A stretch of DNA of 64,000 nt from Candidatus Saccharimonadota bacterium (GTDB lineage Bacteria > Patescibacteriota > Saccharimonadia > Saccharimonadales > Saccharimonadaceae), in the NCBI GenBank assembly GCA_030445245.1, contig JAUCSD010000001.1, forward strand, positions 62,001 through 126,000. Reading direction: 5' to 3'. The position numbers and the translations under genes are program-made. The notes under the pieces are model-generated. The model saw only the letters and a list, made by a program, of their open reading frames with translations, did not search any database and had not been told where the DNA came from. The stretch's first letter is position 1, and each line of letters starts with the position of its first letter. Positions 31,308 to 62,166 of the stretch are shown piece after piece.

Positions 31308-32513
31308 TCAAGACTTTACGAGTACGAGTAATTCACGGGCAACAACTTGATCCTCACGGTAGTATAAAAGATCTTTTTGATCAATATTTTTAAATGAATA
31401 TAATTCGAATCCATATTTATTAAGCTCACTCACAAGTGATAGGTGAGTGAAGCGGCCATCCGTAGCGCGCCATGCAGGAACGGCAATACATAGAGGTGTC
31501 CCTGTATTGAGCTGCGAACTGATGTTCTCAAGAAATGCACCAATGATGTGGTTGCAGTTACGGCGGACCTGATCAAGTTTTGAAGGTGATGGCGGAGCGC
31601 TAAATGGCTGGCCGAGATAACTTTCGCAAACTACTGCATCGATTGGTGGATTCCATTTGGTGTCCATAGCATCTCCTTGATGAAGTGTTGCGTCGACGTC
31701 AACTCGATGCGATGTTGCTAGCCATTCAAGATTTGTCCGCGAGAAATCGATCATCTTATCGGCAATATCTGTGCCATAAACAGCGTGGCTCATAAGCGCA
31801 GCTTCCTGTAAGATAACGCCAGTGCCACAGAATGGATCAAGAACGCGAAGGGAGGGCTGTTGTTCATCAGGGATTTGCTTTATAGGCAGACGGCTCGATA
31901 AAGGTAGGGTAAGGTTAATCATAATTTGAGCGAGCTTGGGCGGCAGCATGCCGACAAAAGCGTCACGTTTTGGTCGTTCTTGGTCTCGCTTAGCATATGC
32001 CGTGATATTTTGAGCGCCGACACTTTCACTGACAATAACACGACCATTACGGGCACGAACGACGATTAACTCTACCTTATTGTCAGATAGTCCGAGTTTA
32101 TTGTGGTGAGAAGTAGCACTGTTCATAGCGGGTTCGGCATTCGGGATGAGGCGTACACTGATGCCATTCTTCTTTAGTCGCTGCTTAAGAATTATGCCGG
32201 TTTGCTGGACGTCTCGTGCTGATACATCAAAGCCATAGGCACTGATGCCTAGCGTTAGTTTGCCTTCGAAGTTCGACCAAGTTCGAGCATATTCTTGTGC
32301 AATTTTCGTGCTGACCTGATGCCAGTCACTATTAGCAAGCTCGATAGTAATGCGAGCCGCCTTCTGTGTGCCTCCTAAAAAGTTAATGGAGAAATCATGC
32401 GTGTCAATAATAGCCGACTGGTCCGAAAACCAGCGGGTTTTGTCATTGCCATACAAATGTTCGAGCTCGGCCATGCCGAGGGCGGGTTGTCTTCCTAAAA
32501 TCGCGATATACAT
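31308..32513 (-). CDS. RNA methyltransferase of the UPF0020/Trm-G10 type
   Basis: A 401-residue protein with a class I SAM-dependent methyltransferase domain in its C-terminal half: motif I DPFCGTGVILQEA (about 225-237), the acidic motif YGTDIADKMI, and a catalytic motif that reads CESYLGQP where relatives have N/D-PP-Y/F. The N-terminal half may hold a THUMP-like RNA-binding region. This makes tRNA or rRNA guanine/adenine N-methylation likely; the altered catalytic motif means the exact activity is uncertain. It is divergent from the next gene with only 23 bp between start codons. Confidence 0.8.
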   Translation of the reverse strand: MYIAILGRQPALGMAELEHLYGNDKTRWFSDQSAIIDTHDFSINFLGGTQKAARITIELANSDWHQVSTKIAQEYARTWSNFEGKLTLGISAYGFDVSARDVQQTGIILKQRLKKNGISVRLIPNAEPAMNSATSHHNKLGLSDNKVELIVVRARNGRVIVSESVGAQNITAYAKRDQERPKRDAFVGMLPPKLAQIMINLTLPLSSRLPIKQIPDEQQPSLRVLDPFCGTGVILQEAALMSHAVYGTDIADKMIDFSRTNLEWLATSHRVDVDATLHQGDAMDTKWNPPIDAVVCESYLGQPFSAPPSPSKLDQVRRNCNHIIGAFLENISSQLNTGTPLCIAVPAWRATDGRFTHLSLVSELNKYGFELYSFKNIDQKDLLYYREDQVVARELLVLVKS

Positions 32514-32520
32514 TGTCTTT

Positions 32521-32530
32521 AGTATATACT
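32521..32530. promoter_or_regulatory. palindromic bidirectional -10 element
   Basis: The palindrome AGTATATACT supplies TATACT on both strands, 6 nt before the plus-strand ATG at 32537 and 7 nt before the minus-strand ATG at 32513. Two leaderless promoters appear to share the same 10 bp. Confidence 0.65.
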
Positions 32531-32536
32531 AGAACT

Positions 32537-33583
32537 ATGTCATTTCGTGCTTGGTTAAGTGTTGTCACACTACTTTTCATCGCTGTTATCATTTATCTCT
32601 CACGCCATGAGCTTATGCATGCATGGCATTTACTCAAGCATGTCCATATTTGGATACTACTTCTGCTTATTCCGGGACAGATTTTAGTTTATTATGCCGG
32701 GGGTGAGATGCTTTTTTCGTATCTACGAGCTAAAAAATCAATTGATCGCATACCACCGCTTGGTTTGGCGCGAATGTCGCTTGAGATGAATTTTGTGAAT
32801 CACATCTTGCCAAGCGGCGGCGTTAGCGGTATTTCGTACATGACGTGGCGGCTGGGTAAGCATGGTGTGCCTGCAAGTCGTGCTACGATGTCGCAAGTGG
32901 TGCGATATGCTATGTCGTTTACTGCTATGATTGTTCTCATCGCAGTATCGGTCATTATTGTAACAATCGATGGTAGTATCAATCGATGGATGATCCTTAT
33001 GAGTTCATTCTTAGTATCGACCATGATCGGTGCTATTTTGGGCTGTGTTTATCTCATTAGTAGCCCAAGCCGAATGACTATGTTCGGGAACTGGCTCGTG
33101 CGTATTGTTAATAGGGTTGTTCGCAAAGTAACGTTTGGACGAAAAGAGCATGTGCTCAATCATACTAAGGTAACTCTATTCTTCTCAGAACTGCATCGCG
33201 ATTTTGCATCCCTAAGGGAAGATAAAAGCATACTTCTCCGACCGTTTATCTGGGGCATTGTGTTTACACTCGCTGACGTGGGTCTATTTATGATTACTTT
33301 TTGGGCACTCGGCGCTCCGATTAACCCGGCACCAATCCTGATCGCGTATGGGGTAGCGTCAATCGCCGGATTTTTTGTCGTAACCCCAGGCGGGGCAGGG
33401 GCTTACGAAGCAATTATGGTTGGATTCCTTGCCGTTGCGGGTATTTCGCAGGGCCTTGCAATCGCCGGAATTGTTTTGACGCGTGTTATTCTCCTCCTCG
33501 GTACGATTATTTTTGGGTATGTATTTTACCAGTTAGCGATTATTAGATATGGAAAAACCGACCAGTCTCCAATTCAGCGTTAG
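32537..33583 (+). CDS. LPG synthase-type integral membrane protein (UPF0104)
   Basis: A 348-residue polytopic membrane protein of the lysylphosphatidylglycerol synthase transmembrane-region/UPF0104 family. About eight hydrophobic segments are visible, with NHILPSGGVSGISYMTWRL (about 92-110) and TPGGAGAYEAIMVGF (about 282-296) as the family motifs. It lacks the cytoplasmic aminoacyl-transferase domain, so it is probably a flippase-like or polyprenyl/lipid-related membrane protein. I start at the ATG at 32537, 6 nt after TATACT. Its end overlaps xseA by 35 bp. Confidence 0.85.
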   Translation: MSFRAWLSVVTLLFIAVIIYLSRHELMHAWHLLKHVHIWILLLLIPGQILVYYAGGEMLFSYLRAKKSIDRIPPLGLARMSLEMNFVNHILPSGGVSGISYMTWRLGKHGVPASRATMSQVVRYAMSFTAMIVLIAVSVIIVTIDGSINRWMILMSSFLVSTMIGAILGCVYLISSPSRMTMFGNWLVRIVNRVVRKVTFGRKEHVLNHTKVTLFFSELHRDFASLREDKSILLRPFIWGIVFTLADVGLFMITFWALGAPINPAPILIAYGVASIAGFFVVTPGGAGAYEAIMVGFLAVAGISQGLAIAGIVLTRVILLLGTIIFGYVFYQLAIIRYGKTDQSPIQR

Positions 33584-34649
33584 CGACTTTATCGCGCTTA
33601 CCAATCAAACACTCGAATATGCATATCCGAGTGTTGAAGTTGAGGGTGAAGTGGCAAGCTTTAAGGTCAATCAGGGTAAATATGTCTTTTTCGACATAAA
33701 GGATGCTGGCGGTAGTATTGGTTGCTTTATGACCGTATGGCAGTTGCGTGTGCCGATTGAAGACGGTATGAAGGTAATTGTGACGGCTACACCAAAGCTC
33801 ACTCAATGGGGAAAGTTTAGCCTAACGGTGCGAGCTATTCGACCAAGTGGCGAAGGCAGTCTCAAGAAAAGCTTCGATATTTTACGTGCCAAGCTCGATC
33901 AAGAGGGGTTATTTGCTCCCGAGCGCAAGCGTCCGTTGCCAGCATTACCCCGTCAGGTAGCTATAATTAGCAGTACCCAGGCGGCCGGTTATGCAGACTT
34001 CATAAAGATTTTGAATGATCGTTGGGGCGGACTTGAGCTTCGAGTAGCTCAAGTTCAGGTGCAGGGAGCGGGAGCACCGGATCAAATGATAGAAGCGCTC
34101 AAATACTTCAACTCAGGTGAGGTATTGCCAGATGTAATTGTTCTGATTCGTGGTGGTGGTAGTGCAGATGATTTAAGTGCATATAACGATGAGTTGCTTG
34201 TACGGGAGATCGCCGCTAGCCGCGTGCCAACACTCGTAGGCGTCGGACACGAAAATGATATAAGCCTTGCTGATATGGTAGCGGATCGTCGGGCAGCTAC
34301 GCCAAGTAACGCGGCCCAGATCCTAGTTCCCGATAAGATGGAGCTCATTCGCAGCGTGCGACGTCAGGTTGGATCGATGTTGCCGCGAACGGAACAAGCG
34401 ATCGAGCGACGAAGACAAGAAATTTACGATCAATTACGGAGGTCTGTTAGTGCGATTGATCGTCAGGTTAATCAGTACGACCAGCAGTTAGCAGGTATTG
34501 CTCGAGTACTAGCCGAACTTGACCCTCGGAAGGTGCTTGCAAGAGGTTATGCACTTGTACGAGGTGATATTAAGCCGGGTGTAATGATTGAAATTGAAAA
34601 ACACGATATACTAATTCAAGCGGAGGTACGCCATGTCAACAAAAAATAA
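33549..34649 (+). CDS. xseA: exonuclease VII large subunit
   Basis: The catalytic subunit of exonuclease VII, which degrades single-stranded DNA from either end. An N-terminal OB fold (about residues 8-105, VEGEVASFKVNQGKYVFFDIKD) is followed by the nuclease domain with IISSTQAAGYADFIKIL (about 139-155), VIVLIRGGGSADDLSAYND (about 196-214) and GVGHENDISLADMVADRRAATPS. At 366 residues it is shorter than the 456-residue E. coli subunit, mostly in the C-terminal coiled coil. It overlaps the gene before by 35 bp and xseB by 17 bp. Confidence 0.95.
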   Translation: MEKPTSLQFSVSDFIALTNQTLEYAYPSVEVEGEVASFKVNQGKYVFFDIKDAGGSIGCFMTVWQLRVPIEDGMKVIVTATPKLTQWGKFSLTVRAIRPSGEGSLKKSFDILRAKLDQEGLFAPERKRPLPALPRQVAIISSTQAAGYADFIKILNDRWGGLELRVAQVQVQGAGAPDQMIEALKYFNSGEVLPDVIVLIRGGGSADDLSAYNDELLVREIAASRVPTLVGVGHENDISLADMVADRRAATPSNAAQILVPDKMELIRSVRRQVGSMLPRTEQAIERRRQEIYDQLRRSVSAIDRQVNQYDQQLAGIARVLAELDPRKVLARGYALVRGDIKPGVMIEIEKHDILIQAEVRHVNKK

Positions 34650-34842
34650 TCTTACAATTGCCGAAAAGACTGCTAAATTGGACGAACTAGTCGCGTGGTT
34701 TGACGCTGAAGACTTTGAGCTTGAACGAGCCCTCGACGTGTTTAAGGAAGCTGAAAAACTGGCTCGGGAAATTGAGCAGGATCTGCAAGGGCTTAAAAAT
34801 AATATTGAAATTGTCAAAACAAAGTTCTCAGAGACGGAATAA
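34633..34842 (+). CDS. xseB: exonuclease VII small subunit
   Basis: A 69-residue all-helical protein that binds the XseA coiled coil. The family pattern is clear: AEKTAKLDELVAWFDAEDFELERALDVFKEAEKLAREIEQ... begins near residue 11 (seen in parts AKLDELVAWFD and ELERALDVFKE). The start lies within xseA with a GGAGG-like site (GCGGAGGTACGCC) upstream. The stop overlaps the start of the next gene (TAATG), so the three genes are translationally coupled. Confidence 0.93.
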   Translation: MSTKNNLTIAEKTAKLDELVAWFDAEDFELERALDVFKEAEKLAREIEQDLQGLKNNIEIVKTKFSETE

Positions 34843-47521: not shown

Positions 47522-48037
47522 CTAACGTTGTAGCGCGATTCGGCAGAGCACACGTCCTGCACCGTCATCCCAAACGTAGAATGTCGAGTTTGGGCAGTCT
47601 GATGAGCTACCGTCAATGACCATAGTTAGATGGATAACTGTACTGTAGTATTCGACATATGGTCCCACAGATCCATTTACTGGAACTCGAGGTGATCCTT
47701 TTGGTGGATCGTATGTACTCAGTGCGCTCATGAGAGTCGTTGATGCTGATTCGGTATAAAAATTCACAGGCTGAGTATAATCACGACATTTTGCACTCGG
47801 GAATCCCGTTCCCAGACAGTAGCCACCATCGGCCATAGCGGGGTATTGTCCGTTGTTAGCAGCCTTATACTGTATGAATGACTTTTGCCAGGCTCTTAGC
47901 TCCTCAAGCCGAGATGCATTTTGAGCGTGATTACGTGAATTGGTGAATGCAATAATAACGATTGAGGCTAATACACCAATAATTACAATTACAATGATTA
48001 ATTCGACAACTGTAAAACCGCTTGTGGTTTTTCTCAT
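47522..48037 (-). CDS. type IV pilin-like protein
   Basis: A 171-residue prepilin. The class III signal MRKTTSGFTVVELIIVIVII shows the Gly-Phe cleavage site (G7/F8), the conserved Glu5 of the mature protein, and a long hydrophobic helix. The globular domain contains two cysteine pairs (GYCLG...KCRD and DCPN...VLCR) that may form disulfides. TATACT lies 6 nt before the ATG. Assembly genes (pilB, pilC, pilD) are not nearby, so it is probably an accessory or minor pilin of a machine encoded elsewhere. Type IV pili are common in Saccharibacteria. Confidence 0.9.
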   Translation of the reverse strand: MRKTTSGFTVVELIIVIVIIGVLASIVIIAFTNSRNHAQNASRLEELRAWQKSFIQYKAANNGQYPAMADGGYCLGTGFPSAKCRDYTQPVNFYTESASTTLMSALSTYDPPKGSPRVPVNGSVGPYVEYYSTVIHLTMVIDGSSSDCPNSTFYVWDDGAGRVLCRIALQR

Positions 48038-48084
48038 AAAGGTAGTATATCACTTGTTGGGGTGAGTGTTATATACTAGAACTA

Positions 48085-61227: not shown

Positions 61228-62166
61228 ATGGCAATATTCTCGAAAAAACAACCGAATCTTCCGCGTCGTCGCTTGCAGACGAGTAAGTTAGCTGAAAGAG
61301 CCACAGAGACCAGTCTAGAAGATCGTTATGCGTTTCGTCGCAACCGTACGATTACAGGGAGTGCCGCATCTGGTGTATCTAGTGCTAATGAGTCGAGTGC
61401 TCAGCTTAAATCGGCTCGTGTCCAGGCGCACGAACTCACAAGTAAACGTCGAAACATCGGTATGACTCTACTGACTGTACTGCTTGGCTGTATGGTGTTA
61501 TTTAGCCTTATCTCTCAATTTACAGCGCGTGCAGTTGTTAAGACCGAAGATAGCTCTATGAAGCTCAACTCCTCTTATGAAGAGATCTTTCAGTCGTACT
61601 TCATGTCTCGACCGATTGAACGACTGCGCTTTCTAACGAATACTAATCAGCTCAATGAGTTCGTGCAATCCAAAGCGCCAGAGGTTGCTAATGTTCAGAT
61701 ATCTGGTGCGGGCGGCTTTGGCGAATCCATTTTCACCCTAACTATGCGTGAGCCGATTGCTGGTTGGAGTATTCATGGTCAGCAACAGTATGTCGACACT
61801 ACCGGTACGGCGTTTACTCATAACTACTTCGCATCCCCCTCGGTGCAGATTGTTGATAACAGCGGTATTCAGGTACAAGCTGGTCAAGCCGTCGCTAGTA
61901 ACCGTTTTCTTGGGTTTGTCGGACGAGCCGTGGGTTTGGCTAAAACTCTTGGGTATAACGTTCAACAAGTAATCATTCCATCTGGCACCACTAGGGAAGT
62001 GGAGCTGCGTGTAGAAGGGGTTGTTTACCCTATAAAGCTTTCAGTAGACAGGCCGGCAGGTGAGCAGACCGAAGATATGACGAGAGTAATCAAGTATCTG
62101 CAAACACGGAGTATAACACCAGAATATGTTGACGTGCGAGTCGCAGGGAAGGCCTTCTATAAATAG
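61228..62166 (+). CDS. ftsQ: FtsQ/DivIB-like division protein
   Basis: A 312-residue bitopic protein with a long basic cytoplasmic N-terminus (1-80), one membrane helix (about 82-104, MTLLTVLLGCMVLFSLI) and an extracytoplasmic part with a divergent POTRA-like section (INQLNEFVQSKAPEVAN-type region near 137-155) and a beta domain (EPIAGWSIHGQQQYVDTTG). Position after murG is standard for FtsQ/DivIB. Sequence similarity in this family is always weak, so the name relies on topology and context. It is the last gene of the cluster and ends at a terminator; ftsA and ftsZ do not follow. Confidence 0.75.
   Translation: MAIFSKKQPNLPRRRLQTSKLAERATETSLEDRYAFRRNRTITGSAASGVSSANESSAQLKSARVQAHELTSKRRNIGMTLLTVLLGCMVLFSLISQFTARAVVKTEDSSMKLNSSYEEIFQSYFMSRPIERLRFLTNTNQLNEFVQSKAPEVANVQISGAGGFGESIFTLTMREPIAGWSIHGQQQYVDTTGTAFTHNYFASPSVQIVDNSGIQVQAGQAVASNRFLGFVGRAVGLAKTLGYNVQQVIIPSGTTREVELRVEGVVYPIKLSVDRPAGEQTEDMTRVIKYLQTRSITPEYVDVRVAGKAFYK

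Follow-up and report, generated by a model that had tools for sequence, protein, structure and literature searches.

A 23 bp Intergenic Region with a Palindromic −10 Element as a Probable Bidirectional Promoter of Two Predicted Leaderless Genes in a Saccharibacteria-Type Genome

Introduction

Bacterial bidirectional promoters in which divergent transcripts share a −10 region have been described with an optimal spacing between the two start sites of 18 bp, followed by 10 and 23 bp (PMC12825309). According to the same work, such promoters in E. coli show little competition between their two directions at basal activity, and activating one direction represses the other. Regarding the minimal sequence requirements, a related work states that a T at position −18 can suffice to stimulate transcription without other elements (PMC10268837). 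The “TA-led” leaderless bacterial genes (Zheng et al. 2011, PMC3160421) are a second type of relevant system; in these, a TANNNT signal precedes the start codon by about 12 nt. Literature searches on leaderless genes in Saccharibacteria or Patescibacteria, the Saccharibacteria Shine-Dalgarno sequence and Nanosynbacter start sites gave nothing on the present case, and the same was true of those on overlapping divergent promoters and on leaderless genes combined with a bidirectional promoter. Here, we describe a locus in a 64,000-nucleotide stretch of DNA (the window; positions 62001–126000 of a 1.16-Mb single-contig genome of the Saccharibacteria type), where one palindrome probably serves as the −10 element of two divergent genes.

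The Two Genes and the Region Between Them

The leftward gene (31308..32513, minus strand) encodes a 401 aa RNA-methyltransferase-like protein with a UPF0020/RMKL-like domain, with UPF0020 scoring 32 bits against a Pfam cut-off of 22.3; TIGR01177 scored 58 bits and did not reach its cut-off of 316.55. The rightward gene (32537..33583, plus strand) encodes a 348 aa flippase-like membrane protein, with matches above cut-off to PF03706 and TIGR00374, so the first-pass annotation of the pair as an RNA methyltransferase and a membrane protein was sound. The flippase gene overlaps xseA (33549..34649, plus strand), encoding the exonuclease VII large subunit, which in turn overlaps an xseB-like gene (34633..34842, plus strand) for the small subunit. 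Given these overlaps, the three genes probably form a rightward operon and would be carried on the same transcript.

The ATGs of the two divergent genes lie at 32513–32511 on the minus strand and 32537–32539 on the plus strand, separated by 23 bp (32514..32536) as originally annotated, and the alignments of relatives begin no more than 3 residues from residue 1 for both proteins at most loci. The intergenic region consists of a shared −10 and two spacers of 6–7 nt, with little room for a leader or a Shine-Dalgarno site. At its centre lies TAGTATATACTA (32520..32531), a perfect 12 bp palindrome that is longer than the one first noticed, built around AGTATATACT (32521–32530). The flippase gene has its TATACT −10 hexamer on the plus strand (32525..32530; 6 nt spacer to the ATG) and the methyltransferase gene its own on the minus strand (32521..32526; 7 nt spacer), the two hexamers overlapping on opposite strands by the central TA (2 bp). 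The proposal of a shared palindromic TATACT element at leaderless distance from both genes therefore holds. In dinucleotide-preserving shuffles of the window, TAGTATATACTA appeared in none of 100 and AGTATATACT in three of 100; the genome carries four copies of AGTATATACT and one of TAGTATATACTA, the latter at this locus. No Rfam family was found at 32000–33000.

Promoter Elements and the Leaderless Signature of the Genome

The best TTGACA match at a spacing of 15–19 bp from the −10 was 3/6 in both directions, compared to a background mean of 2.86 of 6 over 5000 random windows, and a consensus promoter scan reported no promoter at the 23 bp site. It had been argued that both −35s must be located within the opposite coding sequence; the corresponding positions are indeed in it, but neither side shows a −35. 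Hidden −35s in the coding ends of the 25 loci in relatives that share the −10 (see below) were considered and rejected, with mean matches of 3.04 and 3.24 of 6 against the same background, which the reverse side slightly exceeds, and we take a clear −35 to be absent in these shared loci. An extended −10 was likewise rejected, as GTA stands where TG would be; the TG typical of this genome's promoters is displaced at the locus by the reverse −10. Assuming that initiation occurs at the A of both ATGs, a T is found at −18 on each strand, and a −10-centred promoter here would fit the statement on this position in PMC10268837.

To place this arrangement in context, a genome sample of 464 kb was used (the 64-kb window and 400 kb in 20 stretches). 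In this sample, 33 of 793 start-region ATGs had TA[TCA]A[ACT]T ahead of them at a distance of exactly 6 nt, versus 4 of 2315 internal ATGs, and the motif was also in excess at 7–11 nt before start-region ATGs. The peak at 6 nt points to leaderless or nearly leaderless starts being common in this genome, and the spacing at the 23 bp locus is typical for it. Promoters located 6–7 nt before an ATG in the sample favoured a TG upstream of the −10 (T 0.53, G 0.48 at 99 sites) and a clear −35 was absent, which suggests that −10-centred promoters occur more widely in the genome.

Two-ended −10s between starts 18–59 bp apart, with both ORFs of at least 60 aa, were found at six places in the 464 kb. Overlapping −10s were present at only two of the six, the 32514–32536 locus and 263322 (22 bp between starts), and the two-ended −10 was rejected as a generally frequent device; the plus ORF at 263322 is 77 aa and may not be a gene. 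Elsewhere, a divergent pair at 438052 of G000 (in L046; ORFs of 773 and 176 aa, 28 bp between starts) has back-to-back TACAAT −10s that are 3 bp apart and do not overlap. Another divergent pair, 47 bp apart at 48037–48084 of the window (about 110038 of G000), has a separate leaderless-type −10 on each side.

A Probable Minimal Bidirectional Promoter

We consider it very probable that the 23 bp constitute a Warman/Grainger-type bidirectional promoter that lacks a −35 and gives rise to two leaderless mRNAs. AGTATATACT would offer one TATACT −10 per strand, overlapping by two bases, and the housekeeping holoenzyme would bind in either orientation without a recognisable −35 or TG element. Initiation would occur in both directions about 7 bp past each −10, on the flippase side at the A of the ATG, and for the methyltransferase gene either at the ATG or at the base just ahead of it, so that both predicted mRNAs would be leaderless or nearly so and would be translated as such. 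The predicted start sites are 23–24 bp apart (the A-to-A distance of the two ATGs is 24), which would place them in the range of 7–25 bp between divergent start sites taken for shared −10 bidirectional promoters; a spacing of 23 bp results when the hexamers have two bases in common and transcription begins 7 bp downstream of each. Since TATACT is non-consensus and neither a −35 nor a TG is present, the promoter may be weak. Two polymerases could not occupy the site at once, and both genes would be expected to be on in the same cells at a modest level.

Conservation in Relatives

A match to the flippase was present in 341 of 394 genomes of the family. We examined 101 loci, counting this genome's own and duplicate records, and in 97 of them a divergent methyltransferase gene lay upstream of the flippase gene. 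Because the pair is kept to this extent and the −10s of the genome peak 6 nt before the ATG, the palindrome and its −10 spacing are not due to chance. The four loci that lacked the methyltransferase gene in the available DNA were L017 and L027, which are at contig ends, and L028 and L029, with ~765 bp and 1500 bp of upstream DNA, respectively. At three more loci, the methyltransferase gene was present and the flippase start was not callable, and of the 94 loci with both starts called, seven duplicates with identical intergenic DNA from a second collection were removed. One internal stop codon was reported in the flippase frame or match of L003, L018, and L065.

The resulting 87 distinct loci, whose counts are not independent of one another, comprised 25 with a shared, overlapping −10, 60 with two separate −10s, and two without a scored pair. 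The starts were 22–29 bp apart at shared loci and 30–890 bp apart at separate loci, where the label and the 29 bp cut for “shared” were chosen after viewing the alignments. Intergenic lengths cluster, with 24 loci at 22–26 bp, then only 29 and 30 bp, then 36 bp upward. The first labelling by script gave 31 of 94 loci as shared; L007, L008, L081, L099, and L101 (48–67 bp) were relabelled as separate owing to degenerate hexamers or other start codons. For L094, the distance is 29 bp with the called start and 23 bp with an ATG located two codons further upstream.

Two types of shared element were observed, one of 10 bp in 21 loci (18 with the exact AGTATATACT, two with AGTATATAAT, and one with ATTATATACT) and one of 8 bp (AGTATACT) in four loci. 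As the two forms differ by one TA unit, slippage could interconvert them. Conservation of the palindrome in relatives, which the first-pass annotation had named as a check, is clear from the 10 bp form, where eight of the ten core columns are invariant across the 21 loci, the other two agree in 20/21 and 19/21, and the surrounding spacer columns are mostly mixed.

Over all scored rows of the orthologous pair, 81 of 86 had a TATAAT or TATACT 4–11 nt ahead of the flippase start, and 77 of 85 had one 5–10 nt ahead of the methyltransferase start. At separate loci, the flippase −10 was TATAAT in 49/60 and TATACT in only 6/60; the shared form therefore changes the flippase promoter. Sharing was associated with TATACT by Fisher's test with relatedness ignored (p = 3e-13 on the flippase side and 1e-4 on the methyltransferase side), and a comparison of six independent pairs had the flippase trait agreeing in direction in a mean of 2.5 and opposed in 0.3, which was not significant.

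Occupancy of the site by polymerase in only one direction at a time had been suggested, and both the geometry and PMC12825309 favour it, as one polymerase footprint would span the whole 23 bp. The further step, in which steric exclusion at the palindrome leads to mutually exclusive expression of the two genes, is not supported. Strong activation of one direction is described as bringing about competition at E. coli bidirectional promoters, but at basal activity the two directions barely compete (PMC12825309), which would lead us to expect modest co-expression and not a switch. The 23 bp show no evident site for a repressor or an activator, and the same pair has two separate −10s in 60/87 loci, so exclusivity is not a conserved need. 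We regard a switch as very unlikely.

The Palindrome Elsewhere in Family Genomes

Across 86 genomes, TAGTATATACTA was found at 20 places, eight of which are this gene pair. The remaining 12 equal the 12 places of a reversed control, which argues that the palindrome is not a widespread operator and rules out the operator of a regulon. This bears on the possibility that the main role of the palindrome is to serve as operator for a dimeric regulator controlling both genes. Its perfect dyad symmetry, extending up to 18 bp in one relative (L094), would suit such a role, as would the TATACT/TATACT combination present at nearly every shared locus, a greater uniformity than two −10s require; set against these are the lack of any enrichment outside the pair and the 60 separate loci, where the joint palindrome is absent and the −10s are retained. 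We regard the operator as very unlikely and give it the least credence of the readings considered here, although a regulator dedicated to this single site is conceivable.

Places where AGTATATACT has an ATG at 5–9 nt on both sides numbered 11 in the 86 genomes, and nine were this gene pair. The other two are probably one-sided: in G095, there is a minus ORF of 101 aa and no plus ORF of at least 80 aa starting there, and in G035, a plus gene (by reading of its sequence, a putative DNA-binding regulator) is present with no minus ORF of at least 80 aa. The concentration on one pair (9/11), together with retention across several genera, at flippase identities down to about 49% and in three parts of the tree, speaks against the palindrome being a by-product without regulatory consequence, forced by two leaderless genes ~23 bp apart. 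In favour of such an origin, any two leaderless starts separated by 22–25 bp force their hexamers to overlap, TA pairing with TA; a TATACT on each side then yields a palindrome automatically, and genome reduction favours short gaps. We judge a pure by-product to be possible but rather unlikely, and the element may have arisen neutrally and then been retained, which would not conflict with its being a bidirectional promoter.

Evolutionary History of the Shared Element

In a quick IQ-TREE tree of both proteins (87 rows, 25 open forks), the shared loci fell in three parts: this genome with g5, g9, g14, g29, and g37; g24; and g16 with g81. A single clade of shared loci, as a group named by its trait, was rejected (p-AU 2.95e-07), and the state changes at least 10 times among the 85 scored rows. 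L065, with a 63 bp gap and two separate TATACT elements, groups with this genome and L002, and as both of these are shared, re-splitting at L065 is likely. In this 63 bp intergenic region (L055/L065), each gene has its own separate copy of AGTATACT, as if a shared element had been split. The compact shared form appears to come and go at the same gene pair in related genera; regarding direction, we infer that the shared state probably arose from the collapse of two separate leaderless promoters, which an insertion could split again.

These loci provide a natural series at one divergent pair, whose leaderless promoters are a single shared one, two that nearly touch, or two that lie apart, and thus allow a direct test of how −10 sharing affects expression level and noise. 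They also suggest a way in which leaderless translation allows the space between two genes to contract to about 23 bp. As a speculation that we consider unlikely, small-genome leaderless bacteria may use the promoter as the whole intergenic region, one palindrome fixing two start codons and coupling expression via polymerase orientation, with collapse and re-splitting recurring because the cell would benefit from having an RNA-modifying enzyme coupled to the flippase-exonuclease VII operon.

Comparison with Known Systems

The closest described systems are the Warman/Grainger promoters, as presented in PMC12825309 and PMC10268837. Like these, the locus has a symmetric −10 that could be read on both strands, lies between divergent genes, where such promoters commonly occur, would exclude two polymerases sterically, and has predicted starts 23–24 bp apart, near the common published 23 bp. 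Unlike these, both mRNAs are predicted to be leaderless, with start codons at the start sites predicted from sequence; the intergenic region is the promoter alone; and the palindrome is perfect over 12 bp, with no recognisable −35 on either side.

With the TA-led genes of PMC3160421, the locus has in common the distance of the first T of TANNNT from the start codon (12 nt there and on the plus side here, 13 nt on the minus side here), and differs in that one TA signal region would serve two genes; a passage search of that paper's text gave no mention of “TM7”. The separate-promoter loci of other Saccharibacteria share the genes, their orientation, and −10s mostly 6–9 nt before each ATG, and differ in having two −10s, 30 to 890 bp between starts, and a flippase −10 that is mostly TATAAT. 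The mechanism is already known.
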